This document shows, piece by piece, positions 2,548-16,858 of a DNA stretch of 64,000 bases (position 1 is its first letter; each line of letters opens with the position of its first letter). The position numbers and the translations under genes were made by a program. The notes below the pieces were generated by a model. It did no database searches and was not told where the DNA came from. It saw only the letters and a program-made list of their open reading frames with translations. This DNA is from Comamonadaceae bacterium ALPHA2B. Its GTDB lineage: Bacteria > Pseudomonadota > Gammaproteobacteria > Burkholderiales > Burkholderiaceae_C. The DNA lies in the NCBI GenBank assembly GCA_005503065.1, contig SCOE01000001.1, positions 124,001 through 188,000 of the forward strand, in the 5' to 3' direction.

Positions 2548-3210
2548 CTACAGCGGCAGGCAGCGCAGCTCCACGCTGGGCGACTGCAGCCGGTCGGCGT
2601 ACCAGCCTTCGCGCGCGGGCGAGATCAGCGCGCCCAGCCCGTTCATGAGCGCGACGCGGTCGTCGGGCTTGGCCTCGCGGTAGCACTTGCCCAGGCTCTC
2701 GAGGCTGGCACGCAGGGCCTGCGCCTGCTGCGGGTTGCTCTTCTCGAGCGTGGCGGCATTGCCCTTGAGCCAGTCCTCGTAGGCCTGCAGCGTCTGCTCG
2801 GGCAGCTTGGCTGCCTCGTCCTTCGGCACCATGGTGGCGTAGAGCTTCTGCAGGCTCACGGCACCGGGCTGGCCCATCTTCAGGCTCACATCGTATTGCG
2901 CCTCGAAGGCGCCCTGGCGCCAGATCACGCGGCGGATCTTGTAGTCGAGCTGGCCCTTCTCGCCGCCCAGCACCTGGATCAGTTCGCGCGCCTTGGCGTT
3001 GTTCGGGTCTTCGCCGAAGTTGGCTTGCAGCGCCTGCGTGATCTGCGCATCGTCGGGGAAGCGGATGCCGCTGGCGCTGCTGCCGGCAGTGCCCGCGCCG
3101 TCCTTGCAGGCGGTCAGCACCAGTGCGCTGCTCAGGCCTGCCGCCAGCAGCGCCGTGCGCGCAACCCGCAACGAAGACAAGGCGAAGGAAGAGCGGTGGT
3201 GGAAGCGCAT
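2548..3210 (-). CDS. Predicted lipoprotein of unknown function
   Basis: The protein is about 220 residues. It starts with a basic, hydrophobic signal sequence and a lipobox (LTAC, Cys35), so it is predicted to be a lipid-anchored envelope protein. The mature part is soluble and mostly helical, with two further cysteines near the C-terminus (KCYRE and ELRCLPL) that could pair. I recognise no domain. An upstream extension of the frame exists, but the ATG at 3210 places the signal peptide correctly. It is divergent from the repeat-protein cluster that starts at 3713, so it may share the control region or belong with that system, but the sequence does not show this directly. Confidence 0.75.
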   Translation of the reverse strand: MRFHHRSSFALSSLRVARTALLAAGLSSALVLTACKDGAGTAGSSASGIRFPDDAQITQALQANFGEDPNNAKARELIQVLGGEKGQLDYKIRRVIWRQGAFEAQYDVSLKMGQPGAVSLQKLYATMVPKDEAAKLPEQTLQAYEDWLKGNAATLEKSNPQQAQALRASLESLGKCYREAKPDDRVALMNGLGALISPAREGWYADRLQSPSVELRCLPL

Positions 3211-3712: not shown

Positions 3713-4081
3713 ATGAAGAAAATCGTTGCAGCCGGCGCCGTTGCGCTCGTCGCCGCCTTCTCGACCGCCGCCTTCGCACAGAGCGGTGCCATCAGCATCC
3801 CGGGCGTGGGCAAGGCCAACGGCTCGCTGGGTTCGGAAGTGACCAACACCCGCATCACGGTGAGCAACAACAAGGCGCGCGACGTGCTGGCCGGCGGCGG
3901 CGAAGCGGGCGTGCTGAAGGTGGGCGCCAACGTCAGCATGACCGGCATGGCCAACGTCAACACCGTGAACATCACCGGCTCGAAGGTCAAGGACAGCGAC
4001 ATCACCATCAGCGGCAACGAGGCGACCAACGTCAAGGCCATCGGCGGGACGGCCAACGTCAACAGCGTCAACATCAACTGA
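3713..4081 (+). CDS. Small exported repeat protein, first gene of the CsgG-like cluster
   Basis: The protein is 122 residues with a clear Sec signal peptide (MKK, hydrophobic core, AFA-Q cleavage). The mature chain is Asn/Gly/Val-rich and contains two copies of a motif of the type ITxSxNxAxxVxAxGG followed by ANVNxVNI. The same motif builds the 1166-residue protein encoded next and the small protein at 10388-10768. Alternating hydrophobic residues with Asn turns suggest stacked beta-strands, as in curlin-like fibres or beta-helices. By analogy with CsgA/CsgB it could be a fibre subunit or nucleator, but this is inference: no curlin repeat (SxxNxxQxG) is present. An AGGAG ribosome site precedes the ATG. 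Confidence 0.8.
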   Translation: MKKIVAAGAVALVAAFSTAAFAQSGAISIPGVGKANGSLGSEVTNTRITVSNNKARDVLAGGGEAGVLKVGANVSMTGMANVNTVNITGSKVKDSDITISGNEATNVKAIGGTANVNSVNIN

Positions 4082-4209
4082 GCGCGCCCGGCCAGCGGCG
4101 GCCCGCACCCTGCGCGGCCGCACGCATCGCCCGGGGCCGGCGCCGCGTGCGCGCCGGCCGCTGTGGACGCGGTGAGCCTCATCACCCGTCCTGACCCACG
4201 GAGACCGCT

Positions 4210-7200
4210 GTGACCCAGTCCCTTCGACGAAAGAACACCGTTGCCCTCATCGCCGCGCTGTGCGGCGGCAGTTCGCTGCTCATGGCGCCGCCTGCGGGTG
4301 CGCAGGAGAGCGTGCTGCATGGCCTGGGCTGGGTCACGCAGCGCCCCGGCACCGAGCTCAAGGGCAACAGTGCCGCGCGCGCGACCGGCAACAAGGCGAA
4401 TGCCGAAGTGACGGCCGGCGGCGGCAAGGCCACGGCGGGCGCCGGGCTCGGCGCCTCGGTCGACCTCATTGCGACGGCGCAGGCCAACACCGTGGGCCTG
4501 TCGGCCCTGGACGTGAACAACACGCAGCTGAACGTGCTGCAGAACCAGGTCACCGGCTTCGTCACCGCCATCGGCGGCGCGGCCACGGCCAACACGGCAC
4601 TCGTCTCCGGCGGCGCGGGTCGCCGGCCGCTCACGGACAGCGTCGTCAACATCCAGAACAACCAGGCCGCGCGCATCGAGGCGCACGGCGCCAAGGCGTC
4701 CGTGCTGCTCGGTGCCGGCTCGCTGCAGCTGCCCGGCCGCGCCACGGCCAACGGCCTGCTCAGCGACGAGACCGACGTGCGTCGTGCGCGCATCGACGTC
4801 ATGAACAACACCGCCGAGGGCATCGCCTCGCTCGGCGGCGCGGCCATTGCCAACGGCACCACGCTGGCGCGCAGCAACGTCGAGGACCTGCAGACGCAGC
4901 AGGTCCGCAACACGGCGCGCAACGTGCGCGCCGGCGGCGGATCGGGCGGCGCGGGCTGGGGCGCCGTCGCCCAGGCCGACCTCACCGGCGTCGCCGCGGC
5001 CAATGCGGTCACCGCCGCCGGCAGCCAGCTCAAGGGCGCGCGCATCACGCAGCAGGGCAACCAGGTCGACGGCATGTCCGCGCTGGGCGGCAGTGCGTTG
5101 GCCAACACCTTGAACCTGGCCGACTACCAGGGCGGCGACCTGCGCCAGTACCAGGCGCAGCTGTCGAACAACAAGGCCGGCCGCGTCGAGGCCAGCGGCG
5201 GCAGCGGCTCGGTGCTCAAGGGCGCGCTGGCCGACGTGCAGATGTCGGCGGCGGCGCTGGCCAATAGCATCTCGGTGCAGGGCGGGCAACTGCAGGGCGC
5301 GACGCGCCACACGCTGTCGGGCAACCAGGCCGATCAGGTGCAGGCGGTGGGCGGTGCCGCTGCGGCCAACAGCATCTGGCTGCAGAACGCGAGCTCGCGA
5401 AGCAGCAACATCACCCTGACCGACAACCGGGCCGCCGACGTCAACACGGCCGGCGGCCGTGCCACCATCGGTGGCGGCTTCGTCGGCGAGTTCGAGCGCA
5501 ACGGCCGCGCGCTGGCCAACAGCGTGGCGCTGGACCGCCAGGCCACGCTGGACAACACACCGGTCACCATCGACAACAACACCGCGCGCGGCGTGCAGGG
5601 CTCGGGGGGCCTGGCGGCCGCCAACAGCGCGCTGGTGAGCGAAGGCACGGTGCGCAACGGGCGCATCGACCTCGGCGGCAACACGGCCGAGAACGTACGT
5701 GCGAACGGCTTCTCGGGAAGTGCCGCCGGCGGCCTGCTCTTCTCGTCGAAGCAGAACGCGATGGCCCTGGCCAACAGCCTGGGCGTGTTCGGCTCCACCG
5801 TCGATGCGGGCGGCGTGAGCCTGCGCGACAACACCGCGCGCGAGCTGTCGGCGCAGGGCGGCAAGCTGGTCGCCAACAGCGTGAGCGTCGAGAAAGGCGA
5901 GGGCGCCGCCTCGCGCCTGTCGGCCACCACGCAGCTGTCGGGCAACACCGCATCCCAGGTGTCCACCGGTGCCAGTTCCATGGCAGGGCCGGGCAACGCC
6001 TTCAGCGAACGCAGCGTGGCGCGCGCCGCCACCAACGCGGTCGTGCTGTACGAGAACACGCGCGTCGACAGCGGCTCGGCCCTCACGCTGCGCGACAACC
6101 GTGCCACGCAGGTGGCGGCCATCGGCGGCACGGCGCTGGTCAACGCGCTGGCGGGCTATCGCGATGCGAGCCTCTCCGGCAGCCCGGTGACGATCACCGA
6201 CAACACGGCCAGCGACGTGCGCACCGGCGGCGGCTACGGCCAGGTCGCCGGCATCGGCGATGCGAAGAACGGCATCCTCGTGGCCAACGGCGTGTACCTC
6301 GAGGGCGAGAACGGCGTGCGGGTGTCGGGCTCGCCGGTCACGGTGCGGGGCAACCGTGCACAGGCGCTCAATGCCGACGGTGGCCGCATCAACGCCAACG
6401 CGCTGGCGGTCAACGGCCAGGGCGATGTGCAGGGCAGCCCCGTCACGCTGGCCGACAACCGTGCCAGCAACATCAAGAGCGAAGGCAAGGAAGGCACGAT
6501 CGCGGGCCACGCCGTCATCGGCAAGGGCGTGGGTGCGGCGAGCGCCAACGCGGTGCAGGTGCTCGGCGCGCTGCGGGCGAGCAGCATGCAGCTGCTGGGC
6601 AACACCGCCGACAACGTGCGGGCCGAGAAGGGCATCGCGCTGGCCAACAGCGCGATGGTCGGCGAGGGTGCCAGCACCGAAGGCAGCCCCACCACCATCA
6701 GCGGCAACACCGCCAACGACGTGAGCACGCGCGACGGCAAGACGGCCGTGGCCAACAGCGTGTTCAACGAGGGCCGCACCAGCGGCTCGCAGGTCGCCAT
6801 CACCGGCAACCAGCGCAGCGGTGCGCAAGCCGACGGCGAAGACGCGAGCGCCGCCAGCCTGCGCAACCGCAGCAGCGGCCGCATCGCCGGCTCGCAGGTG
6901 GCGATCACGGGCAACCAGGGCAGCGCGCACAAGGGCACGATCAATTCGGTGGACAACAGCGGCAACCTCGGCGGCAGCCGCATCGCCATCCTGGGCAACC
7001 GCGGCAGCGTGCAGGGCGGCGGGGTGGCCAACAGCGTGATCAACGGCGGCACCATCGCCGGCGGGCAGATCACGGTGCTGGGCAACCAGGGCAGCACGCA
7101 GGGCGGCGGCACCGTCAACAGCGTGATCAATCAGGGCCGCATCGGTGCCGGCAGCATCACCATCGCAGGCAACACCGGGTCCGCGCGCGGCGGTGGCATG

Positions 7201-7710
7201 GTCAACAGCGTGCACAACCGCAGCAGCGGCAACCTGATGAACGCCAACATCGCGATCGTTGGCAACCATGGCGAGGCCCGCGGCGGCGGAACGGTGAACA
7301 GCGTCGACAACCGCGGCACGCTCACCGGTCGCGTGGCGATCATGGGCAACCAAGGCTCCAGCCTACAGGGCGGTACGGTCAACTCCGTCGTCAACCACGG
7401 GTTGATGGCCGGCAACATCGTGATCGCCGGCAACCGCGGTTCCGCGATGGCGGGAGGCACGAGCAATTCCGTCATCAACCGCGGCGTCATCACGGGGACG
7501 GTGGCCATCGTGGGCAACCAGTCCGCGGCGGGCGTCGGCATGACCACGGGCAGCGTGCGCACCACCGGTGGCGTGCTGGCCGGTGCGGCCGGGGTTGCGG
7601 GCAACACGCCCTGGGCAGCGAACGCGGGCTACACCGTGACGCTGCCGTCGACCGGCGTGGTCAACCGCAGCGTGACCGTCGGGCCGGCGGTGACGGTGCT
7701 GAACATGTGA
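4210..7710 (+). CDS. Giant exported Asn/Gly/Ala-rich repeat protein (putative adhesin or fibre subunit)
   Basis: The protein is 1166 residues and starts at a GTG preceded by GGAGA. An N-terminal signal peptide ends near PAGA-QE (about residue 31). Nearly the whole mature chain is repeats. From about residue 40 to 855 there are long irregular units built on [VI]xIxxNxAxxVxAxGGxA with an ANS/ANA triplet. From about 858 to 1105 they become compact units of 28-29 residues based on ITGNxGSxxGGxxNSV. There are no cysteines beyond the signal region, no predicted internal membrane span and no C-terminal beta-barrel domain, so it is not an autotransporter. The chain ends with a short beta-rich segment (AVTVLNM). 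A repetitive beta-solenoid or amyloid-like surface polymer is likely. The neighbouring CsgG-like lipoprotein is the obvious candidate exporter. Confidence 0.8.
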   Translation: MTQSLRRKNTVALIAALCGGSSLLMAPPAGAQESVLHGLGWVTQRPGTELKGNSAARATGNKANAEVTAGGGKATAGAGLGASVDLIATAQANTVGLSALDVNNTQLNVLQNQVTGFVTAIGGAATANTALVSGGAGRRPLTDSVVNIQNNQAARIEAHGAKASVLLGAGSLQLPGRATANGLLSDETDVRRARIDVMNNTAEGIASLGGAAIANGTTLARSNVEDLQTQQVRNTARNVRAGGGSGGAGWGAVAQADLTGVAAANAVTAAGSQLKGARITQQGNQVDGMSALGGSALANTLNLADYQGGDLRQYQAQLSNNKAGRVEASGGSGSVLKGALADVQMSAAALANSISVQGGQLQGATRHTLSGNQADQVQAVGGAAAANSIWLQNASSRSSNITLTDNRAADVNTAGGRATIGGGFVGEFERNGRALANSVALDRQATLDNTPVTIDNNTARGVQGSGGLAAANSALVSEGTVRNGRIDLGGNTAENVRANGFSGSAAGGLLFSSKQNAMALANSLGVFGSTVDAGGVSLRDNTARELSAQGGKLVANSVSVEKGEGAASRLSATTQLSGNTASQVSTGASSMAGPGNAFSERSVARAATNAVVLYENTRVDSGSALTLRDNRATQVAAIGGTALVNALAGYRDASLSGSPVTITDNTASDVRTGGGYGQVAGIGDAKNGILVANGVYLEGENGVRVSGSPVTVRGNRAQALNADGGRINANALAVNGQGDVQGSPVTLADNRASNIKSEGKEGTIAGHAVIGKGVGAASANAVQVLGALRASSMQLLGNTADNVRAEKGIALANSAMVGEGASTEGSPTTISGNTANDVSTRDGKTAVANSVFNEGRTSGSQVAITGNQRSGAQADGEDASAASLRNRSSGRIAGSQVAITGNQGSAHKGTINSVDNSGNLGGSRIAILGNRGSVQGGGVANSVINGGTIAGGQITVLGNQGSTQGGGTVNSVINQGRIGAGSITIAGNTGSARGGGMVNSVHNRSSGNLMNANIAIVGNHGEARGGGTVNSVDNRGTLTGRVAIMGNQGSSLQGGTVNSVVNHGLMAGNIVIAGNRGSAMAGGTSNSVINRGVITGTVAIVGNQSAAGVGMTTGSVRTTGGVLAGAAGVAGNTPWAANAGYTVTLPSTGVVNRSVTVGPAVTVLNM
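6781..7530 (+). repeat. Compact 28-29-residue coding repeats in the giant protein
   Basis: In-frame tandem repeats of roughly 84-87 bp encode about nine units of the pattern [IV]xGNxGSxxGGGxxNSVxN. The period and the invariant NSV are much more regular than in the N-terminal two thirds of the same protein. This suggests more recent expansion of this part, or stronger structural constraint on it. Confidence 0.75.
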
Positions 7711-7743
7711 GGGCGGCTGGCGGCCGCGTGGAAGGAGCGAATC

Positions 7744-8175
7744 ATGACGAGGGCAAACCACTGCATCGGTGCGCTGGCGGGCACCCTGGCCCTGCTCGTG
7801 TCGGGCGCGGCATCGGCCCAGCTCATCAACTACGGCGAGGCCCTCGGGGCCTACAAGGACAACAAGGACGCGGGCGTCAAGCTGATCGACGGCGTGACCC
7901 CGGGCGTCACGGCCCGTGCGCGCGTGGCGCGCGCGCTCGAGCAGAACAAGGTGGTGGAGCAGCAGGCGCTCGTGCAGCCGGACGGCACGCTCAAGCTGCC
8001 CGCCAACCAGACCAACCTGGTCATCCGCACGGACTACAGCAATGTGCAGCAGGGGGCCGACGGCCAGCTGCGCATTGCCAGCCCGACCATTCAGGGCAAT
8101 GTGAGTGGCAACGTGACGCTGTTCGTCGACGGCAAGGGGGTGGAGAACATCACGGTCCTGAACAACGGCAAGTGA
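7744..8175 (+). CDS. Small exported protein of the CsgG-like cluster
   Basis: The protein is 143 residues. It has a signal peptide ending ASA-Q and an AAGGAG ribosome site. The mature part begins with a helical stretch (YKDNKDAGVKLIDG, ARALEQNKVVEQQAL) and ends in a beta-rich stretch, GNVSGNVTLFVDGKGVENIT, close to the C-terminus. It lacks the GN-A-V-GG repeats of its neighbours. The short length, the position directly before the CsgG-like gene and the Asn/Val-rich tail recall the holdfast-anchor protein HfaA, which is encoded beside the CsgG-like HfaB in Caulobacter. I make that comparison from memory and it is weak. It could instead be a chaperone or a minor subunit. Confidence 0.7.
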   Translation: MTRANHCIGALAGTLALLVSGAASAQLINYGEALGAYKDNKDAGVKLIDGVTPGVTARARVARALEQNKVVEQQALVQPDGTLKLPANQTNLVIRTDYSNVQQGADGQLRIASPTIQGNVSGNVTLFVDGKGVENITVLNNGK

Positions 8176-8263
8176 CCGTGCTGCGCTGCGCGGCAGCGTC
8201 CGGCGAACCGGGGCCGAGTGATGCGGCCCCGCATGAACAACAACTCCCTGTCCGGTTGACCGA

Positions 8264-9442
8264 ATGACATCGCACACCTCTTCACGCGTGCGGCGCGGGG
8301 CGCTCGCCCTGGCCGCCACGGCCGCCCTCCTGGCCGGCTGCGCCACCACCGAGAACGCCCTGAACGACGCCGACAAGCTGCTGGCCGAACGCGAGGCCGC
8401 CAAGCAGCTGCCCACGGCCAACCTCAGCAGCTATGCCGTCTCGCTCGGGCGCTTCGGCCACATGCTCGACATCTACAAGGATGGCGACCCGGTGGTCTAC
8501 ATGCAGACGCGCAACATCCTCGACGCCACCAACCTGTCGAACCCGCTGGTGGGTTCGGAGATCCCGGGCGACATCACCGAGATGGTCCGCACCGCGGTCA
8601 ACCGCATCGGCGCGCGCATCGTGTACGTGCCCTACCACCCCGACTACCTGATCTCGCAGGCACAGCTGGGCGCGAAGTTCGGCGTCACCATGCCCGACTT
8701 CCTGATCACCGGCGCGCTCACCGAGTTCGACCGTGCGCTCTCGGGCGCGGGCCGCTCCAACTCGGCCAGCGTCGATTTCGGCAAGGGCAAGGGCGAGACC
8801 AACATCGGCGCCGACTTCAAGCGCACCGCCATCCTCTCGGCGCTGGCACTCGACCTCAACCTGGTGAGCTTCAGCACGCAGCAGATGGTGCCGCGCATCC
8901 AGGCCTCGAACGTCATCAAGGTGCTGAACTTCAGCTCCGAAGACAACGCCAGCCTGGGCTTCTATGGCGATTCGTTCGGCTTCAAGCTCGAGGGCAAGTA
9001 CCTGCAGGGCCGCCACTCGGCCATCCGCACGCTGGTGGACCTGAGCGTGCTCGAGTTGATGGGCAAGGCCACCAACACCCCGTACTGGCGCTGCATTCCC
9101 AACGGCGTGCCCGACCCGGTGGTGGTCGAGAACATGCAGCGCTCCTTCGAGGGCCTGACGCCGCAGCTCAAGGTGGGCCTGATCCAGGTCATGCTGCGCA
9201 AGTACGGCGAGAACGTCACCGTCAACCAGCAGCTCGACGAGCCCACCAAGGAGGCGCTGCGCCGCGTGTATTCCACCCGCTACCCGCAGATGGGCGACAC
9301 GGTCGACGTGCTGAGCTGGAAGGGCTTCGAGCCGCTGTTCTTCGGCGTGCCGATGCCGTGGGACCCGCCGCCGCAGACCGCGGGGACCGCTGCGCCGGCC
9401 GCGCCCGGCACGCCGGCCGCACCTGCGAAGGTGGGCACCTGA
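8264..9442 (+). CDS. CsgG-like outer-membrane secretion lipoprotein
   Basis: The protein is 392 residues with a lipobox (LAGC, Cys26) after an Arg-rich signal peptide. Residues 50-270 follow the CsgG/HfaB plan: a nucleotide-hydrolase-like start, then PDFLITGALTEFD, a Gly/Ser-rich stretch, IGADFKRTAILSALALDLNL, VSF(S)T and a helix ending LELMGK. CsgG itself has the comparable series YIVEGSIIGYE...IGADTQYQLDQIAVNLRVV. CsgG forms a nonameric outer-membrane channel that exports curli subunits unfolded. Residues 300-350 (IQVMLRKYG... LDEPTKEALRRV) look like a peptidoglycan-binding-type helical module, which CsgG lacks. The tail is Ala/Pro-rich. The stop codon overlaps the next start by one base. 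The CsgG-like call is from pattern and should be checked by profile search. Confidence 0.75.
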   Translation: MTSHTSSRVRRGALALAATAALLAGCATTENALNDADKLLAEREAAKQLPTANLSSYAVSLGRFGHMLDIYKDGDPVVYMQTRNILDATNLSNPLVGSEIPGDITEMVRTAVNRIGARIVYVPYHPDYLISQAQLGAKFGVTMPDFLITGALTEFDRALSGAGRSNSASVDFGKGKGETNIGADFKRTAILSALALDLNLVSFSTQQMVPRIQASNVIKVLNFSSEDNASLGFYGDSFGFKLEGKYLQGRHSAIRTLVDLSVLELMGKATNTPYWRCIPNGVPDPVVVENMQRSFEGLTPQLKVGLIQVMLRKYGENVTVNQQLDEPTKEALRRVYSTRYPQMGDTVDVLSWKGFEPLFFGVPMPWDPPPQTAGTAAPAAPGTPAAPAKVGT

Positions 9443-10377
9443 TGCCACGGCTTCGTTCGCCGGATCCCTGGCGCGCCCAGCTTCGCGTCGGCGCTGCCGC
9501 GGTAGCGCTTGCGGCCTGCACACTGGGGCCGGCCACATCGACGGCCTGGGCGCAGGCCGCGGCCAGCACGGGGGCTGCAGCACCTTCGGCGGCTGCACGC
9601 GCGACCGTCACCGTGGGTGGCGGCACGGGCGCTCCGGCCTCCGCCGCCGCCACCCCGATCGCGCCGGCGGGCGCCACCGCGGCACCGGGTGGCGATACCG
9701 GCGCGCGCTATGTCGAATCGTGCCAGCAGGCCATCGAGCGCGGCATCGTCAATCCCGGATGCCAGGGCCCGCTCTACGCGAGCGAGATCGCGCGGCTGAA
9801 GGAAGACGCGCTGCGCACCAACAACCCCAACCTGCTCACGCTGCTGGGCGATGCCTACCAGAGCAACCGCAGCGGGGTCTCCGACATCGGACAGGCCTAC
9901 CGCTGGTACCTGCTGGGCGCGGTGCGCGGCGACCCGCGCGCGATGCAGCGTCTGAGCGAGCTCTACAAGAGCGGCCGCGGCGCGCCGCAGGACAACATCA
10001 AGGCGCTGGGCTATGCGCGGCTCGCGCAACGCCTGGCCGTGCCGGGCAGTGCCAGCGCCAAGCAGGCGACCGACACCATCAACAGCCTCGGCAACGACAT
10101 GGCGGCCGAGGAAGTCGTGCTGGCGGACCGCTTCGCCAGCGAACTCGAAAGCAAGCTGCGCGGCCAGAGCGCTGCGCCGGGCACGGCCTCGGCCGGCGCG
10201 CCGGCGATGGTGCCTGCACCGGCGGGTGGCCCCGCACCACGCGGCGGCGCGAACATCTCGCGCCTGCCCGGCATGGGTGCCGTGCAGGCGCAGAGTGCGC
10301 CGCCAGCGCCCGCTGCGGCGTCGCCGCTGGGCGGCCTGCCGGGCCAGGAGAGCCTGGCGCCGCGCAGCACGCCTTGA
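9442..10377 (+). CDS. Exported Sel1-repeat protein
   Basis: The protein is 311 residues starting at 9442, where ATG overlaps the previous TGA. A signal sequence (AVALAACT... AWA-QA) is followed by a low-complexity Ala/Pro/Gly linker. About residues 105-190 contain Sel1/TPR-like helical repeats (LLTLLGDAYQ, AYRWYLLGAVRGDPRAM, LSELYKSGRGAPQDNIKALG). The C-terminus is again Ala/Pro-rich. Sel1 proteins act as scaffolds for envelope complexes. In this translationally coupled position it is probably an adaptor or periplasmic partner of the CsgG-like channel. The LAAC stretch in the signal region could serve as a lipobox, so lipidation is possible. Confidence 0.75.
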   Translation: MPRLRSPDPWRAQLRVGAAAVALAACTLGPATSTAWAQAAASTGAAAPSAAARATVTVGGGTGAPASAAATPIAPAGATAAPGGDTGARYVESCQQAIERGIVNPGCQGPLYASEIARLKEDALRTNNPNLLTLLGDAYQSNRSGVSDIGQAYRWYLLGAVRGDPRAMQRLSELYKSGRGAPQDNIKALGYARLAQRLAVPGSASAKQATDTINSLGNDMAAEEVVLADRFASELESKLRGQSAAPGTASAGAPAMVPAPAGGPAPRGGANISRLPGMGAVQAQSAPPAPAAASPLGGLPGQESLAPRSTP

Positions 10378-10387
10378 GGACCCTTCC

Positions 10388-10768
10388 ATGCAACGAACCT
10401 CTCCTTTCCCTCGCCCCGTGCGCCGTGCCTCGTTCGCGGGCCTGGCGCTGGCCGCGCTGGGCGGCCTGCTCGGCGCGGCGCCCGCGTGGGCCGACGACCG
10501 CACCGTCATCGACAACCCGGGCCGCGGCACCAACCGCATCGAGATCACCGGCAACACCGCGACCAACGTGCAGGTGCGCTGCGGTGACGGGCGAGCGGCA
10601 GCCGCGGGCCAGGGTGCCAACGTGAACAGCGTCAATGTCGACAAGCGGGCGCTCGAGGGCCGCACGGTCATCGTGACCGGCCGCAACACGCGCGACGTCA
10701 AGGCCGACGCCGACTGCGCCCATGGCCAGCCGGGCGCGGCCAACGTGAACAGCATCAACATCCGATGA
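10388..10768 (+). CDS. Second small exported repeat protein with paired cysteines
   Basis: The protein is 126 residues. It has an Arg-rich signal peptide ending AWA-DD. The mature part holds two units of the motif found in the gene at 3713 and in the giant protein: IEITGNTATNVQV with ANVNSVNV, then VIVTGRNTRDVKA with ANVNSINI. Each unit carries one cysteine (RCGDG and DCAHG) where the other family members have Gly/Ala, so an intramolecular disulfide is plausible. It is probably a minor subunit or cap of the same polymer. Its stop codon overlaps the start of the next gene (ATGA), which supports an operon. Confidence 0.75.
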   Translation: MQRTSPFPRPVRRASFAGLALAALGGLLGAAPAWADDRTVIDNPGRGTNRIEITGNTATNVQVRCGDGRAAAAGQGANVNSVNVDKRALEGRTVIVTGRNTRDVKADADCAHGQPGAANVNSINIR

Positions 10769-11364
10769 CGATGGCTTCCAAGACTTCCTCCCGTGCAGCG
10801 GCTGCGATGGCCGTGGCTGCGACCCTCTTCGCTGCCGGCTGCTCCGACCGCGCGACCGATGCGACGCCGCCCGCGGTGACACCGGCGCCGGCACCGGTGG
10901 CGGCGGCGCCCACGCCTGCACCGCCGGCCGTGGCGGCTGCACCGGCGGCCCCTGCACCCGCGCCGGCCCCCGCCGCCGAACGGCAACTGCCGCTGTCCGT
11001 GCAGGGGGTGGCCAGCGCCGGGCTCACCGTGCGCGTCAAGGGCATCGAGCTGGGCCCCGATGCCACCGTGCTCACCGTGAGTGCCTCCTTCGCCAGCCAG
11101 CTCACCAACTGGACGCAGATGGCCTCGGGCGACACCTACCTGCAGGACGCCGATGGCAACAAGCTGATGCTCAAGCGCGTCGAGGACAACCGCTACCTCA
11201 AGATCAAGAACGGCGACACGATGGAAGGCCGCCTGGTCTTCCTCGGCGCCGTGCCGCCTTCGGCCGCGCAGGTCAAGCTGGTGCTCAACGAAGGCAGCCC
11301 GCAGGACGACCCCAACAGCCCCGGCCTGACGATCGACCTGCCGCTCAAGCCGGCCGGTTCATGA
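10765..11364 (+). CDS. Lipoprotein with Ala/Pro linker and C-terminal beta domain
   Basis: The protein is 199 residues with a lipobox (FAAGC, Cys26), then about 45 residues of Ala/Pro-rich linker that could span the periplasm. A C-terminal domain of roughly 125 residues has alternating beta-strands (LTVRVKGIELGPDATVLTVS, LVFLGAVPPSAAQVKLVL). The shape resembles small immunoglobulin-like accessory domains, but I recognise no specific family. It overlaps both neighbours by four bases (ATGA), so it is translated together with the repeat protein before it and the OmpA-domain protein after it. It may be an accessory factor for fibre assembly. The function is inferred only from context. Confidence 0.75.
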   Translation: MTMASKTSSRAAAAMAVAATLFAAGCSDRATDATPPAVTPAPAPVAAAPTPAPPAVAAAPAAPAPAPAPAAERQLPLSVQGVASAGLTVRVKGIELGPDATVLTVSASFASQLTNWTQMASGDTYLQDADGNKLMLKRVEDNRYLKIKNGDTMEGRLVFLGAVPPSAAQVKLVLNEGSPQDDPNSPGLTIDLPLKPAGS

Positions 11365-12074
11365 GCGGCCGGCGCGCGGCCGCCGCCGCGGGGCTGCTGG
11401 CGCTGTGCGCACTCGGCACCGCCGCCAGCGCGAGCGCCGAGTACCGCGTGCAGCGCAGCGCCGCCCCGCTCGCCGACACGCCCAGCCGCTTCGTGCCGCA
11501 GGCCGATGCGCCGGGCAGCGAGATGCGCCCCGCCGGCACGCCCAGCCGCTTCGGGCCCGCCGGTGCCGCGTCGACCTTCGCGCCGGCGGCCGGGCCCGCC
11601 ACGCGCTTTCGCCTGGCCGAGGTGCCGCCCGCGCGCCTGGAGCGCACGTGCGAGCTGCTCGACACCCTGCAGGCCCGCGAGACGCCGCAGCAGGCCATCG
11701 TCATCGACCTGCGGGCCGACGTGCTGTTCGACTTCGACAAGGCCGAGCTGCGGCCCGATGCGCAGGCCTCGCTGGCGAAGGCGGCCGAATTGCTGCAAAG
11801 CTACGCGAATGCGCCGATCGCCGTGCGCGGCCACACCGACGCGAAGGGCAGCGACGCCTACAACGACGCGCTGTCGCTGCGCCGCGCGCAGGCGGTGGCC
11901 GAGCGCCTGCGCGCGTCGGCAGGCGGCCGCACCATCGCCACCGAGGGGCTGGGCAAGCTCCGCCCGGTGGCGCCGAACCAGCACGCCGACGGCAGCGACG
12001 ACCCCGAAGGCCGCCAGCGCAACCGCCGCGTCGAGATCGTCATCGAGGCGCCGGGCACGCGGCCGGCGTCCTGA
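11361..12074 (+). CDS. OmpA-domain (peptidoglycan-associated) exported protein
   Basis: The protein is 237 residues. It has a signal peptide ending ASA-EY, then a linker with degenerate TPSRF repeats (residues 39-83). The OmpA-like domain spans about residues 112-230: VLFDFDKAELRPDA, VRGHTDAKGSDAYNDALSLRRAQAV and NRRVEIVI. The RGHTD and LSLRRA segments form the diaminopimelate-binding pocket in this family, so it should bind peptidoglycan non-covalently. There is no N-terminal beta-barrel. As the next-to-last gene of the cluster it probably ties the export complex or the surface polymer to the cell wall. Confidence 0.85.
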   Translation: MSGRRAAAAAGLLALCALGTAASASAEYRVQRSAAPLADTPSRFVPQADAPGSEMRPAGTPSRFGPAGAASTFAPAAGPATRFRLAEVPPARLERTCELLDTLQARETPQQAIVIDLRADVLFDFDKAELRPDAQASLAKAAELLQSYANAPIAVRGHTDAKGSDAYNDALSLRRAQAVAERLRASAGGRTIATEGLGKLRPVAPNQHADGSDDPEGRQRNRRVEIVIEAPGTRPAS

Positions 12075-12101
12075 CCGGCGGCCCCATCCCACGGAGACAC
12101 C

Positions 12102-12356
12102 ATGGCCCTCATCGCCTGCCCCGAATGCGGCCACCAGGTCTCGACCCTGGCCAAGAGCTGCCCCTCCTGCGGCGCGCCGGTCTCGGCGGCGCCGGCCGAT
12201 GCGCCGCCGCGTCGCGAGCCGGTCGTCACCGCCGGCCTGCTGGGCAAGGTGGTCGCGGCCATCGCCGCCTGGCTGGTCGTGCCCTGGGTGGTCCGCATGG
12301 TCGCCTTCGTCGCCGGCATCGTGATGCTGATCGTGATGTTCGCGACGGCCCGTTGA
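12102..12356 (+). CDS. Small zinc-ribbon membrane protein
   Basis: The protein is 84 residues. An N-terminal zinc ribbon uses Cys6, Cys9, Cys20 and Cys23 (CPECG and CPSCG). A short Ala/Pro linker leads to one or two C-terminal hydrophobic segments (about residues 46-82), so it should sit in the inner membrane with the ribbon in the cytoplasm. GGAGACACC precedes the ATG. It lies 27 bp after the OmpA-domain gene on the same strand. Similar double-zinc-ribbon membrane proteins are common and uncharacterised, and a role in the cluster is not shown. Confidence 0.7.
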   Translation: MALIACPECGHQVSTLAKSCPSCGAPVSAAPADAPPRREPVVTAGLLGKVVAAIAAWLVVPWVVRMVAFVAGIVMLIVMFATAR

Positions 12357-12373
12357 GCGTTGGATCGAAACAT

Positions 12374-12436
12374 CCATTCGGGCTGAGTTTGTTGTCGAAG
12401 CCTCGCGCGGCGCTTCGACGCGCTCGGCGTGAACGG
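12374..12436. repeat. Degenerate GAGCCTGTCGAAG-type palindrome, copy 1
   Basis: This is an imperfect inverted repeat. The left side reads CCATTCGGGCTGAG...GTCGAAGC and the right side GCTTCGACG...GAACGG. It is a decayed member of the family seen intact at 36811-36850 and 59661-59720. It sits between the convergent ends of the zinc-ribbon and MFS genes. Confidence 0.6.
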
Positions 12437-12462
12437 TCTCCAGGGAATTGCCGGCTCAATCA

Positions 12463-12515
12463 AATCGGCCTGCAGCGCGCGTCGGTCCTGCGCAAGGCGC
12501 TACGAATTCGATAGC
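12463..12515 (+). repeat. 53-bp dispersed repeat, copy 2 (overlaps the MFS stop codon)
   Basis: It has the same length and layout as the copy at 1214-1266: AATCGGCCTGCAGCGC at the start and GCTACGAATTCGATAGC at the end. The hairpin end runs into the 3' end of the MFS gene on the opposite strand and provides its last residues and stop codon at 12500-12502. Confidence 0.75.
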
Positions 12516-13714
12516 GATCGCGGTCGTCGGCTCATCCGCTGCGCCAGCACCAGCGCCACCACCGCCGCCACGCTGGCCACCAGCAGCACCCACAGACCCG
12601 CCGTGTAGCCCCCGGCCGGCTGCCACAGCACGCCCAGCAGCCAGGGCGCGATGGCACGCGCCACGGCGGTCGGCAGGCCCAGTGCGCCGTTGAGCGTGGC
12701 CACGTGCGCACGGCTCACGTACTGCGCGATGGCCGTGCCCTTCACGATCGTCAGCATGCCGTTGCCCATGCCGTAGAAGGCCACGAAGAGCAGGGCGGTC
12801 CAGGCGTGGCCCGCGCCGGCGAGCAGCGCCGCCAGGCCGATCGGGATCAGGCAGGGAATCAGCCGGTTGGCCAGGTGCAGGTCGAAGCGGTGCTCGAAGA
12901 CGTAAAGCAGCGCGCGCCCCAGCACCTGCACGGCACCGATGCTCGCCGGCACCGCGATCGCCCACGACTCGGCCAGCCCCGCGCCGCGCAGCAGGCTCAC
13001 CATGTGCGGCGGCAGCGCCGCCGTCACTGCCATCAGCAGCACCACGAACACGCCGATGAGCAAAAAGGGGGCGCTGCGCAGGTGGGTGTGCAGGCCCGGG
13101 TCGGCTGCGGCTTCGGCCGGCCCCGCGGCAGCCAGCGCCGCGGGCGGCGCGCCCCGCAGCCAGTGGAAGTGCAGCGGCGCGCATACCAGCAGATGCATCA
13201 CGGCCAGACCCAGCACCGTGATCCGCCAGCCGGCGTGCGCCACGCCCCAGGCGACGAGCGGGATGAACACCGTGCTCGCCAGCCCACCGAGGAAGGTCAG
13301 CGTGATGATGGCGCGCCTGAAGTCGAGCGGAAAGCGCCGCGTGACCACGGCAAAGGCCGAGTTGTACAGCGTGCCGGCCAGCCCCAGGCCCAGCACCGTC
13401 CATGCTGCGTAGAAGCTCCACAGGCCGCTCGCCACGCTGTGCAGCAGCAACCCGGCCACCAGCAGCAGCGAGCCGCCCGTCATCACGGCGCGCTCGTGCC
13501 CGCGGTCGATCCATCGGCCCACCGGCCAGGCCATCACGCCCTCGGCCAGCAGCGCCAGGCTGAAGGCCAGCGAGGACTGCGCGCGTGTGAGGCCGAGCGA
13601 CTGCTCCACCGGTTCGAGCAGCACGCCGAAGCCGTAGAAGATGCTGCCCCAGCTGATGAGCTGGCCCACCGACAGCCAGGCGACGAGGCGGCGGTCGTAG
13701 GGGGATGAGGTCAT
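12500..13714 (-). CDS. MFS transporter
   Basis: The protein is 404 residues with about twelve hydrophobic segments and a cytoplasmic break near residues 185-215, the usual 6+6 arrangement. The loop between segments 2 and 3 carries GRWIDRGHERAVM, a form of the MFS signature. It begins SSPYDRRLVAWLSVGQLISWGSIFYGFGVLLEP, typical of small-molecule or organic-acid permeases in this superfamily. No substrate can be deduced. The last residues (LSNS) and the stop come from an inserted 53-bp repeat, so the original C-terminus may have been slightly different. Confidence 0.85.
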   Translation of the reverse strand: MTSSPYDRRLVAWLSVGQLISWGSIFYGFGVLLEPVEQSLGLTRAQSSLAFSLALLAEGVMAWPVGRWIDRGHERAVMTGGSLLLVAGLLLHSVASGLWSFYAAWTVLGLGLAGTLYNSAFAVVTRRFPLDFRRAIITLTFLGGLASTVFIPLVAWGVAHAGWRITVLGLAVMHLLVCAPLHFHWLRGAPPAALAAAGPAEAAADPGLHTHLRSAPFLLIGVFVVLLMAVTAALPPHMVSLLRGAGLAESWAIAVPASIGAVQVLGRALLYVFEHRFDLHLANRLIPCLIPIGLAALLAGAGHAWTALLFVAFYGMGNGMLTIVKGTAIAQYVSRAHVATLNGALGLPTAVARAIAPWLLGVLWQPAGGYTAGLWVLLVASVAAVVALVLAQRMSRRPRSLSNS

Positions 13715-13738
13715 GGCCAGGGCGCGGGGTTGTGAACG

Positions 13739-13792
13739 AATCGGTCTGCAGCGCGTTTTGGGGTGCGTGCAATTGGCTATGCCTTCATAGGC
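13739..13792 (+). repeat. 53-bp dispersed repeat, copy 3 (degenerate)
   Basis: It begins AATCGGTCTGCAGCGCG and ends GCTATGCCTTCATAGGC, keeping both ends of the family while the middle has diverged. It lies directly upstream of the MFS start codon, between that gene and the foreign-looking gene at 13879-14934. Confidence 0.65.
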
Positions 13793-13878
13793 GAGCCTAC
13801 TTTCAGGTCATTGCTGTGCTAGTGCGGGAGCTGGATCCGTCGCCCACCACTTGCGCCAGCCTCGGGTAGATAGCGTCT

Positions 13879-14934
13879 TCAGCCGCTTGCCGGTCTCACA
13901 CCGATCGCATTCATCAACTGATCCACTGTAGAGAACAGGTCCATCCTCATCTGCGTTGCCTCTTCTAGCATTCGTTCTTCGTCGGCGTCGAGCCCGAGCT
14001 CAATGCGAAGGCGGGCCAGGACTTTGATCGCTTGATCGGCAAGCTCAGACAAATGCTGGCGCATGAAAAGCTCGTAGTCGGCACGCGCCTTGGCGCTACG
14101 TCCGAATGCTGTTGAAGCGTCGGCCCACGCTTTTGCGATCAGGCCCGTCAGCCTCTGAACTTCCAGCCTTTGCGCGGTCCACTCATCAGATGTTTTTGAA
14201 AGCTGCGCTCTGTCCGTCTCTTGGAGTTCGTCGAGTTTGAGTTGCAGTGCCTTGGCGCGCGCCTCATGGGATTTCGCCGTCGCGTTCAGTCCAAATGCGT
14301 TTGTGGCGAGGGGAGTCGCCAGGATCGCAAGCCGGGCATACATCATCGATAGGCGCTGTGCGTCGATGCCGGTCTCCTGATCCGCCACAACCTGCAGCTT
14401 TGCGCTTGCTGCGGCGAAACCATTCAATCCGTCGAGGGCGTCAGGATTCTCAAGATCTCGCTTAAACATACTGCCCACGAAAGCATTTGCCTTGACAATC
14501 TCGGCGGCGCTTTCTAGATAGACCTCACGACGCATATCGGCTTCGCGTTCTACCTGGGCCTCCTCTGCTGCACGATCAAGCTGAACTGCGAGCCGGTCCG
14601 CATCGTGCAGCAGTTGCTTATCCGACTTCTCCTGATCCGCAGCGATCTGCGCAGAAGCTCGTCGGTCGTGGCTCTGGTTGGTAAGCAGTACGCCGTAGAA
14701 AGTCAGCGGGCCGACGATCAGCGCTGCCCAAAATGTGCCGGGTACGGACTGAACAAGAGTCCAATCGATGCGATGCCAAGACGCTGCCACTGCAAGGGCT
14801 GCGCCAGCAAGGGACGATGCAACACAAAGCCCGATCGTGTTTAGCGATATACCCTCGCGCACTGCAGTAGGTGGCGGTCCTTGCTCGTCGAGACGCTGCT
14901 GTAATCTTGTGGAGGTCGGCTCAGTCTGTGACAT
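13879..14934 (-). CDS. Coiled-coil membrane protein of unknown function, likely acquired
   Basis: The protein is 351 residues. The N-terminus is polar, followed by two hydrophobic spans at about residues 30-52 and 66-86 (LCVASSLAGAALAVAASW and FWAALIVGPLTFYGVLL). The rest is a long, highly charged helical region rich in Ala/Glu/Arg/Lys/Gln with heptad character (about 90-320). This predicts an inner-membrane hairpin with a cytoplasmic coiled coil. Base composition is clearly lower in G+C than the flanking genes, with codons such as TTG, GAT, CAT and AAT that the neighbours avoid. I recognise no family. The foreign composition and the repeat next to it suggest horizontal transfer. A defence or stress role is possible but unsupported. 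Confidence 0.7.
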   Translation of the reverse strand: MSQTEPTSTRLQQRLDEQGPPPTAVREGISLNTIGLCVASSLAGAALAVAASWHRIDWTLVQSVPGTFWAALIVGPLTFYGVLLTNQSHDRRASAQIAADQEKSDKQLLHDADRLAVQLDRAAEEAQVEREADMRREVYLESAAEIVKANAFVGSMFKRDLENPDALDGLNGFAAASAKLQVVADQETGIDAQRLSMMYARLAILATPLATNAFGLNATAKSHEARAKALQLKLDELQETDRAQLSKTSDEWTAQRLEVQRLTGLIAKAWADASTAFGRSAKARADYELFMRQHLSELADQAIKVLARLRIELGLDADEERMLEEATQMRMDLFSTVDQLMNAIGVRPASG

Positions 14935-15144: not shown

Positions 15145-16697
15145 GCCTTTCCTCCTTCGTTGAGCACACGCCGGTACTGCATCGCCTCCGCCACATGCGC
15201 CACCGCGATCGCCTCGGCGCCGGCCAGGTCGGCGATGGTGCGCGCGACCTTGAGCCCACGGTGGGTGGCCCGCGCGCTCCAGCCCAGGCGCGCCGCGGCG
15301 TTGCGCAGGAAAGCGAGGGCGGCGGCGTCGAGCGCGGCATGGCTGTCGATGTCCGCGCCCTGCAGCGCCTGGTTGGCGCAGCCCTGGCGGGCCAGGGCGC
15401 GCTCGCGCGCCGCGACCACGCGCGTGCGCACCGCCGCGCTGGGCTCGCCGGCGGGCGCGGCCAGCAGTTCGTCGGGCGCGACGGCGGGCACCTCGATGTG
15501 CAGGTCGATGCGGTCGAGCAGCGGGCCACTCAGGCGGCCCTGGTAGCGGGCCACCTGGTCGGGCGTGCAGCGGCAGGCCTTCTGCGACGAACCGCGGAAG
15601 CCGCAGGGGCAGGGGTTCATGGCCGCGACGAGCTGGAAACGGGCGGGGAACTCGGCGCGACGTGCGGCGCGTGCGATGGTGATGTGGCCGGTCTCGAGCG
15701 GTTCGCGCAGCGCCTCCAGTGCGCTGCGCGGGAATTCGGGCAGCTCGTCGAGGAAGAGCACGCCGTGGTGCGCCAGCGAGATCTCGCCGGGGCGGGGCGG
15801 CGAGCCGCCGCCGACCAGGGCCACGGCGCTGGCCGAGTGGTGCGGTGCCGCCAGCGGGCGCTGCAGGAAGCGGCCCAGGTCGAAGCGCCCGGCCAGGCTG
15901 GCGATGGCGGCGGTCTCCAGTGCCTCGTCCACCGACAGCGGCGGCAGCAGGCCGACGAAGCGCTGGGCCAGCATCGACTTGCCGGCGCCGGGCGGCCCGA
16001 CCATGAGCAGGCTGTGTCCGCCTGCGGCCGCGATCTCCAGCACGCGGCGGGCGGCGGCGTGGCCCTTCACGTCCAGCAGGTCCGGGCCGGCCGGTGCCTC
16101 GGCGGCCGCGGGCTCGGGCATGCGCGACCAGCCGTCGGTGCCACCCCTGGCCAGGGCCTCCTGTGCGGCGGCCCCATCGGGCGGCAGGAAGCGCTGGACC
16201 ACGTCGAGCAGGTGGCGCGCGCCGTACACCTCGATCGATGGCACCAGCGCCGCCTCGCGGGCGCTGTCCATCGGCAGCACCAGGCGCGTCGCGGCGTCCT
16301 GCCCGTGCACCGTCAGCGCCATGGCCAGTGCGCCGCGCACCGGCCGCAGCTCGCCCGACAGCGAGAGCTCGCCCGCGAACTCGTGGCCGGCCAGCCGGTC
16401 GGCATCGATCTGGCCGCTGGCCGCCAGGATGCCCAGCGCGATCGGCAGGTCGAAACGGCCGGAGTCCTTGGGCAGGTCGGCCGGCGCCAGGTTCACGGTG
16501 ATGCGGCGGTTGTGCGGAAACTCCAGGCCGGCGTTCTGCAACGCCGAGCGCACCCGCTCCCGGGCCTCCTTGACCTCCACATCCGCCAGGCCGACCAGCG
16601 TGAAGCTGGGCAGGCCATTGGCGAGATGCACCTCCACGGTGACTGGGGCAGCCAAAAGCCCCAACAGCGCACGGCTGCGCACCAAAGACAGACTCAT
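15141..16697 (-). CDS. comM: ComM/YifB-type Mg-chelatase-like AAA+ ATPase
   Basis: The protein is 518 residues. Residues 1-170 form the Lon-protease-like N domain (MSLSLVRSRALLGL, VGLADVEVKEARERVRSAL). The AAA+ core has a Walker A GPPGAGKS at 234-241 and a Walker B VLFLDELPEF. A cysteine cluster CPCGFRGSSQKACRC follows, then the helical C-terminus. ComM is a hexameric helicase that promotes branch migration when single-stranded DNA is integrated during natural transformation. The ATG at 16697 follows GGGAGAAAAGAAC and matches the family N-terminus. It is divergent from the nitrogen operon. Confidence 0.9.
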   Translation of the reverse strand: MSLSLVRSRALLGLLAAPVTVEVHLANGLPSFTLVGLADVEVKEARERVRSALQNAGLEFPHNRRITVNLAPADLPKDSGRFDLPIALGILAASGQIDADRLAGHEFAGELSLSGELRPVRGALAMALTVHGQDAATRLVLPMDSAREAALVPSIEVYGARHLLDVVQRFLPPDGAAAQEALARGGTDGWSRMPEPAAAEAPAGPDLLDVKGHAAARRVLEIAAAGGHSLLMVGPPGAGKSMLAQRFVGLLPPLSVDEALETAAIASLAGRFDLGRFLQRPLAAPHHSASAVALVGGGSPPRPGEISLAHHGVLFLDELPEFPRSALEALREPLETGHITIARAARRAEFPARFQLVAAMNPCPCGFRGSSQKACRCTPDQVARYQGRLSGPLLDRIDLHIEVPAVAPDELLAAPAGEPSAAVRTRVVAARERALARQGCANQALQGADIDSHAALDAAALAFLRNAAARLGWSARATHRGLKVARTIADLAGAEAIAVAHVAEAMQYRRVLNEGGKA

Positions 16698-16858
16698 TTG
16701 TTCTTTTCTCCCTGATTTGGTGCATTCACCGCCCACCGCCGTGGATCCGCTCATGCACCTGCCGGCATGCCGTCCGACGTTCGATGATGATTTATAGCGA
16801 TTGCGCCGCGCGCGACGACGATGCCGTCCTGTCACACAAGTTCCCCGGCGCTTGCAAT

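Follow-up and report, generated by a model that had tools for sequence, protein, structure and literature searches.

Introduction

Pores of the CsgG type are known mainly from curli amyloid and from the Caulobacter holdfast anchor. Here we describe a cluster of nine genes at positions 3713-12356 of a 64,000-nucleotide stretch of DNA from Comamonadaceae bacterium ALPHA2B (contig SCOE01000001.1, positions 124,001 to 188,000; hereafter the window, numbered from its first letter). The products of the cluster probably make up a dedicated system for secretion across the outer membrane and assembly at the surface, in which a pore of the HfaB/CsgG type exports beta-solenoid surface proteins. The pore family is already known, but no known relative was found for the cargo and for most of the accessory proteins. 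No description of this cluster was found in the open-licence PubMed Central literature.

In Caulobacter, HfaB is reported to be required for HfaA and HfaD to arrive at the outer membrane and the surface, and HfaABD is described as anchoring a polysaccharide (PMC6707917). In curli systems, the ~12 Å opening of CsgG is reported to suggest that the subunits pass unfolded (PMC7304575), and CsgA-type subunits are said to differ greatly in their number of repeats, reaching 529 residues and 22 repeats (PMC3521004). The latter source treats CsgG matches outside curli systems as likely paralogs in a larger family (PMC3521004), and CsgG-like pores have been reported in several bacterial phyla (PMC13397529). 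Finally, MafA of Neisseria, an oligomeric outer-membrane lipoprotein that its authors call reminiscent of CsgG, is reported to export the MafB toxin (PMC7738311).

Results

Comparison of the locus with known systems

The nine open reading frames all lie on the plus strand, head to tail, and a tenth gene, U1, diverges from them:

2548-3210, minus strand: U1, divergent lipoprotein of 220 amino acids and tenth member of the module; no Pfam family at E 0.1
3713-4081, plus strand: R1, small exported repeat protein of 122 amino acids, without cysteine after residue 30
4210-7710, plus strand: R2, large exported repeat protein of 1166 amino acids with a GTG start; predicted continuous beta-solenoid
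7744-8175, plus strand: S3, small exported protein of 143 amino acids with a very conserved C-terminal half
8264-9442, plus strand: G4, distant CsgG/HfaB-family lipoprotein of 392 amino acids with an additional C-terminal helical part
9442-10377, plus strand: Sel5, exported protein of 311 amino acids with one weak Sel1-type repeat (Pfam E 9.9e-05, below the cut-off)
10388-10768, plus strand: R6, small exported repeat protein of 126 amino acids
10765-11364, plus strand: L7, lipoprotein of 199 amino acids with a lipobox in the sequence; no family found
11361-12074, plus strand: O8, exported protein of 237 amino acids with a C-terminal OmpA (peptidoglycan-binding) domain (Pfam E 3.8e-17)
12102-12356, plus strand: Z9, zinc-ribbon protein of 84 amino acids (Pfam Zn_ribbon_3, E 1.5e-07) with a C-terminal hydrophobic stretch

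A signal peptide or lipobox was seen by eye in all of the nine proteins except Z9. R1, S3, and R6 have no Pfam family even at E 1, and the Pfam matches of R2, G4, and L7 are weak and all below their cut-offs. A preliminary description of this DNA, made without database searches, had reported nine colinear genes, some overlapping by 1-4 bases, repeat proteins of 122, 1166, and 126 residues, and OmpA-domain and zinc-ribbon proteins. All of this holds, with overlaps at three of the eight junctions (9442/9442, 1 base; 10768/10765 and 11364/11361, 4 bases each). Its Sel1 protein does match Sel1, but below the Pfam cut-off, and its extent of the cluster was right for the nine genes but missed U1 on the left.

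Like HfaABD, the locus combines a protein homologous at profile level to HfaB, namely G4, with small and larger exported repeat proteins. However, G4 scores far below the HfaB cut-off, its presumed cargo has no detectable kinship with HfaA or HfaD in comparisons with small reference sets, and further conserved genes (Sel5, L7, O8, Z9, and U1) are present. With curli (csgBAC-csgDEFG, type VIII secretion), the locus shares a putative pore protein of the CsgG family and small exported repeat proteins, whereas S3 is not CsgF-like and the cluster carries a 1166-residue cargo predicted to be a solenoid, together with OmpA, Sel1-type, and extra lipoprotein genes. The Pfam models PF07012 (the curlin repeat), PF10614, and PF10627 had no match in the genome, with the E. 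coli control found each time. This confirmed genome-wide the earlier remark that the curlin repeat, CsgE, and CsgF are lacking, CsgE having been searched for through Pfam only.

MafA/MafB offers a further parallel, drawn from its description only, in that a CsgG-reminiscent oligomeric lipoprotein exports a cargo other than curli (PMC7738311); the difference is that this cargo is a toxin. It is highly improbable that the locus is a route of this kind, in which a CsgG-like lipoprotein would send out an interbacterial toxin. Pfam and NCBIfam gave no toxin or immunity family above its cut-off among the nine proteins, and R2 has a C-terminus that is conserved between species and not variable.

G4 and the CsgG/HfaB family

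Profile comparisons relate G4 to pores of both the HfaB and the CsgG type. Aligned with hhalign to nine HfaB-type sequences, the G4 alignment reached 98.1% (E 1.1e-13, 246 columns), against 0.4-0.6% for three column-shuffled HfaB controls and 0.1-11.8% for four other proteins of the cluster. It reached 99.7% against the CsgG-like part of DUF4384 proteins. A profile of G4 and its DUF4384-type relatives, built without CsgG or HfaB, retrieved solved CsgG structures as the top five of its 11 PDB matches (best E 0.0007), and a similar combined profile reached 95.8% against curli CsgG, with shuffled controls at 0.1-0.2%. The NCBIfam HfaB model gave a single weak match to G4 (17.4 bits, E 0.002), below its cut-off of 300 bits. 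G4 has a lipobox, LLAGC, at residues 22-26, and Cys26 is invariant in 22 sequences inspected by eye. The G4 profile comprised the window and 28 of 29 related loci (see below); L054 was left out because the automatic call had overshot the stop codon of this intact gene. The HfaB and CsgG sets comprised nine of 10 and 19 of 20 loci, without L087 and L095, which were in the wrong reading frame. Judged by these profiles, G4 is a distant lipoprotein of the CsgG/HfaB family, and its closest characterized relative found is HfaB. The protein at 8264-9442 had been called a CsgG-like lipoprotein in the preliminary description, and this was right at the profile level: a CsgG-family match was found.

Four results weigh against a pore formed by G4. 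The Pfam CsgG model matched neither G4 nor anything else in its genome, a phmmer search of the PDB with G4 returned no match, and the G4 alignment alone reached only 8.1% against 19 curli-type CsgG sequences. In addition, the AlphaFold2 model of G4, made from an alignment of the window and 21 of the 29 loci, is poor (predicted local distance difference test, pLDDT, 45.6; predicted template modeling score, pTM, 0.32) and confident only at about residues 285-365; this model neither supports nor contradicts membership of the family. Given the 8.1%, the empty Pfam and phmmer searches, and the poor model, the argument for a pore fold is one of profile comparisons only.

The missing Pfam match and the 8.1% would fit a G4 that forms no pore and serves instead as a periplasmic or outer-membrane lipoprotein scaffold, with the repeat proteins staying in the periplasm or leaving by other means. 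The additional C-terminal helical part of G4 and the lack of a confident CsgG fold in the AlphaFold model would also suit a scaffold. We consider this quite unlikely, however, as the part of G4 that matches HfaB and CsgG covers the stretch in which the two membrane hairpins of CsgG presumably lie, and as G4 co-occurs strictly with the repeat gene R1. The C-terminal part itself reached 95.4% against a peptidoglycan-binding domain when a shared PYWxC stretch was included and 0.4% when it was not, and it may, as an unproven assignment, be a worn domain of this type.

Repeat proteins and S3

R1, R2, and R6 are asparagine-rich and have in common a repeat that reads ITISGNxAxNVxAxGGxAxVNSV in the alignments. 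Profile-profile comparison gave 97.8% for R1 and R2 and 98.0% for R1 and R6, with shuffled versions at 0.1-0.6%; R6 and R2 compared directly gave only 18.6%. At the level of sequence profiles, the three are homologous, in line with the earlier statement that three proteins share one repeat. Cysteines beyond residue 30 number exactly two in all 26 R6 sequences (the row for L055, really an R1, was removed), whereas all 29 R1 and all 30 S3 sequences lack them.

Copies of the motif in R2 are ~34-35, 50, or 85-89 residues apart, and between residues 861 and 1120 their spacing is 27-31. Autocorrelation at lags 34, 35, 85, and 87 in the N-terminal part and at lag 28 in the C-terminal part exceeded all shuffles; that at lag 50 did not. 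The length of R2 across species is 1046-1216 amino acids by automatic calls, leaving out one call of 1235 amino acids with an implausible start, and the differences consist of blocks of repeats. AlphaFold2, run on an alignment of the window and 19 of the 29 loci, predicted a continuous beta-solenoid (pLDDT 78.7, pTM 0.79) with low-confidence loops every ~85 residues. By this prediction, the largest repeat protein would be a rod by itself. A Foldseek search with the model found nothing in the PDB at E ≤ 0.001 (best match, antigen 43, E 0.015). Among viral structures, three passed the same threshold, each of them a collagen-type protein from a giant virus; these matches of a predicted structure are weak and generic.

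R1 is small, is encoded by the first gene of the operon, and has a signal peptide and strands rich in N and G, which would suit a curli-like amyloid fibre with R1 as its major subunit, either R2 or R6 as nucleator, and G4 as exporter. The variation of R2 between species by repeat blocks also recalls CsgA-type subunits, whose repeat number is reported to differ widely (PMC3521004). Nevertheless, we regard such a fibre as rather unlikely. The genome has no Pfam curlin repeat, R1, R2, and R6 showed no detectable kinship with six curlin-type sequences picked by motif (0.1-1.7%), on which ground R1 and R2 were rejected as curlins, and the predicted R2 is a folded solenoid rod of a single chain that would not require polymerization. 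S3 was likewise rejected as a CsgF: against 12 CsgF sequences picked by motif, the cargo proteins and S3 gave 0.1-3.0%, the 3.0% being that of S3. A value of 23.0% for R1 was set aside, since the match spans only residues 2-28, which are the R1 signal peptide.

It is also possible to read the locus as a holdfast-type anchor, in which a complex of G4 and the R proteins would fasten an exopolysaccharide to the cell in the manner of HfaABD, without itself being the adhesin. HfaB is the closest characterized relative of G4 found, and the partners of HfaB are described as anchoring a polysaccharide (PMC6707917), but R1, R6, and S3 compared with HfaA and R1, R2, and R6 compared with HfaD gave only 0.2-7.3% in the six pairs, and NCBIfam found no HfaA or HfaD family among the nine proteins. 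R1 and R2 were therefore rejected as HfaA and HfaD. This result also counts against export of the repeat proteins by an HfaB/CsgG-type pore, although it comes from a weak test of low sensitivity because the reference sets hold only three and five sequences. The genes of the window just outside the module resemble a fumarylacetoacetate-hydrolase-type protein and an MFS transporter, in a survey that covered these neighbours and not holdfast synthesis genes genome-wide. Overall, an anchor of this type appears improbable.

Conservation and distribution of the cluster

A scan with G4 over 84,980 species, with one genome per species and with only close relatives within reach, gave 29 loci. Of these, 25 have the complete set of nine genes with the order unchanged, and the other four (L053, L055, L057, and L062) reach contig ends; the cluster is therefore more than a chance unit. 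The figure of 25 is counted by gene start. It is 24 by automatic gene end because the O8 frame of L072 runs past the next gene. This overrun (L072:13167-14438, Diaphorobacter aerolatus) sets that locus apart from the other loci examined. A genus name is attached to 26 of the 29 loci, three being labelled only to order or phylum, and the genera are Xenophilus, Pseudacidovorax, Variovorax, Acidovorax, Ottowia, and Diaphorobacter, all of the Comamonadaceae, and Xylophilus, which we take to belong to the same family. Xenophilus aerolatus DSM 19424 is among the carriers (L052). L049 and L050 are records of one strain. In a second set of 14 loci, in which strains are partly repeated, 12 have all nine genes; the exceptions are L030, which is cut off by a contig edge, and L037, in which no Z9 was detectable. 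The nine genes thus form a conserved unit, mostly in the Comamonadaceae.

Among 60 genomes, including that of the window, 21 have a relative of G4, which is strong in 17 (at least 47% identity) and only distant in four. In a larger set of 220 genomes of the family, the R1 profile matches 12, and strong G4 orthologs (E < 1e-190) are found in the same 12, so that in none of the 220 does the repeat gene occur without the CsgG-like gene. Occurrence of the repeat genes apart from that gene was the outcome that the preliminary description had named as speaking against a joint system. Thirty further genomes of the 220 have a distant relative of G4 only. Across the order, with at most four candidates scored per genome, strong G4 orthologs occur in four of 399 genomes, and the system therefore looks uncommon there.

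The conserved unit also reaches one gene leftward, to U1. This gene adjoins R1, divergently, in 28 of the 29 loci with a readable upstream flank of R1 (the window and 28 others), and it is the sole near-universal gene among the flanking genes compared. A different gene takes this position in L067, and the flank is missing from L057. Among the 220 genomes, U1 is present in 11 of the 12 that bear the cluster, always beside R1; it was not found in the remaining carrier, G479. Only two of the 208 genomes without the cluster have partial or weak matches to U1. One of them (G474:C199:18555-18752, a partial match) belongs to the same genus as the carrier G034 and yielded no R1 and no G4 ortholog; perhaps the cluster has been lost or was left unassembled.

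A small version of the cluster is present at L040, in another family of the order. Its members are a repeat protein of 107 residues that matches R1 at 95.9%, an OmpA protein that matches O8 at 96.4%, a protein resembling S3 (64.2% probability), and G4 (~47% identity). As it keeps just the parts that export by an HfaB/CsgG-type pore would need, this minimal version counts in favour of that explanation. Adjoining it on the minus strand are an FhaC/ShlB-type pore of two-partner secretion (Pfam ShlB, E 5.1e-30) and a protein with WD40 and caspase domains (15220-16857 and 11098-14052). Within the nine proteins of the window, Pfam detected no FhaC-type or autotransporter beta-barrel domain.

More distant are eight relatives of G4 in Burkholderiales (L041-L048; 22-31% identity), the closest homologs outside its own family. 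Of three tested by Pfam, all have DUF4384, two have PG_binding_1, and two match CsgG below the cut-off (13.6 and 12.9 bits). Several of these loci resemble ours in their neighbours, namely a tandem-repeat protein, an exported protein of ~140 residues, and a Sel1-type protein of ~400 residues (Sel1 was confirmed in L042, the sole locus tested). However, the DUF4384 and PG_binding_1 domains set them apart, and their repeat and small proteins showed no detectable kinship with R1 and R2 or with S3 (0.1-5.7%). They apparently represent another unnamed CsgG-type system. The preliminary description had listed curli and hfaABD as CsgG systems but had missed these clusters of CsgG-like and DUF4384 proteins. 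A protein annotated as DUF4384 and 27.7% identical is encoded on a plasmid of Azospirillum ramasamyi.

Discussion

Export of beta-solenoid surface proteins through an HfaB/CsgG-type pore is supported by the profile matches of G4 to HfaB and CsgG, the repeat shared by R1, R2, and R6, the predicted solenoid of R2, the gene order kept in 25 of 29 loci, the co-occurrence in 12 of 220 genomes, the minimal version at L040, and the dependence of HfaA and HfaD on HfaB. In the pathway that we propose, R1, R2, R6, and S3 would enter the periplasm by means of the Sec signal peptides seen in their sequences, and G4, by analogy with CsgG, would oligomerize into an outer-membrane pore. R1, R2, and R6 would cross this pore unfolded and fold outside into asparagine-rich beta-solenoids. 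With ~28 residues per turn and a beta-solenoid rise of 0.48 nm, R2 would be a rod of ~15-20 nm rather than a fibre. R1, which is short and open-ended, might extend or nucleate this rod, and R6, with its constant pair of cysteines, might cap or lock it.

S3 could act as an adaptor or plug of the pore, a role like that of CsgF or HfaA, with which it has no detectable homology. The OmpA domain of O8, and perhaps the C-terminal part of G4, would tether the machine to peptidoglycan, and Sel5, L7, and U1 may assist assembly in the periplasm or at the outer membrane. The product would lie on the cell surface and may serve in surface attachment or cell-cell adhesion.

Tentatively, and with less confidence than we place in export as such, the locus could represent another class of secretion system in the CsgG family. 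Its pore would export beta-solenoid rods that are non-amyloid and giant (more than 1100 residues) and that fold outside the cell; small homologous subunits would extend or cap these rods, and a peptidoglycan tether would be built in. If the proposed pathway is right, large solenoid proteins folding outside the cell are also among the substrates of the CsgG pore family, a finding that would be relevant to substrate recognition and to why CsgG needs accessory plugs. The Comamonadaceae, which are bacteria of soil, water, and plants, would gain a previously unrecognized surface appendage.

A last feature concerns the gap between R1 and R2 (4082-4209 in the window), where an RNA stem-loop is predicted with z < -2 in three of 11 loci; the window itself has a value of -1.89. 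The stem is strong in some species (z -5.32 in L073 and -3.45 in L058) and not in others, and it might raise the expression of R1.

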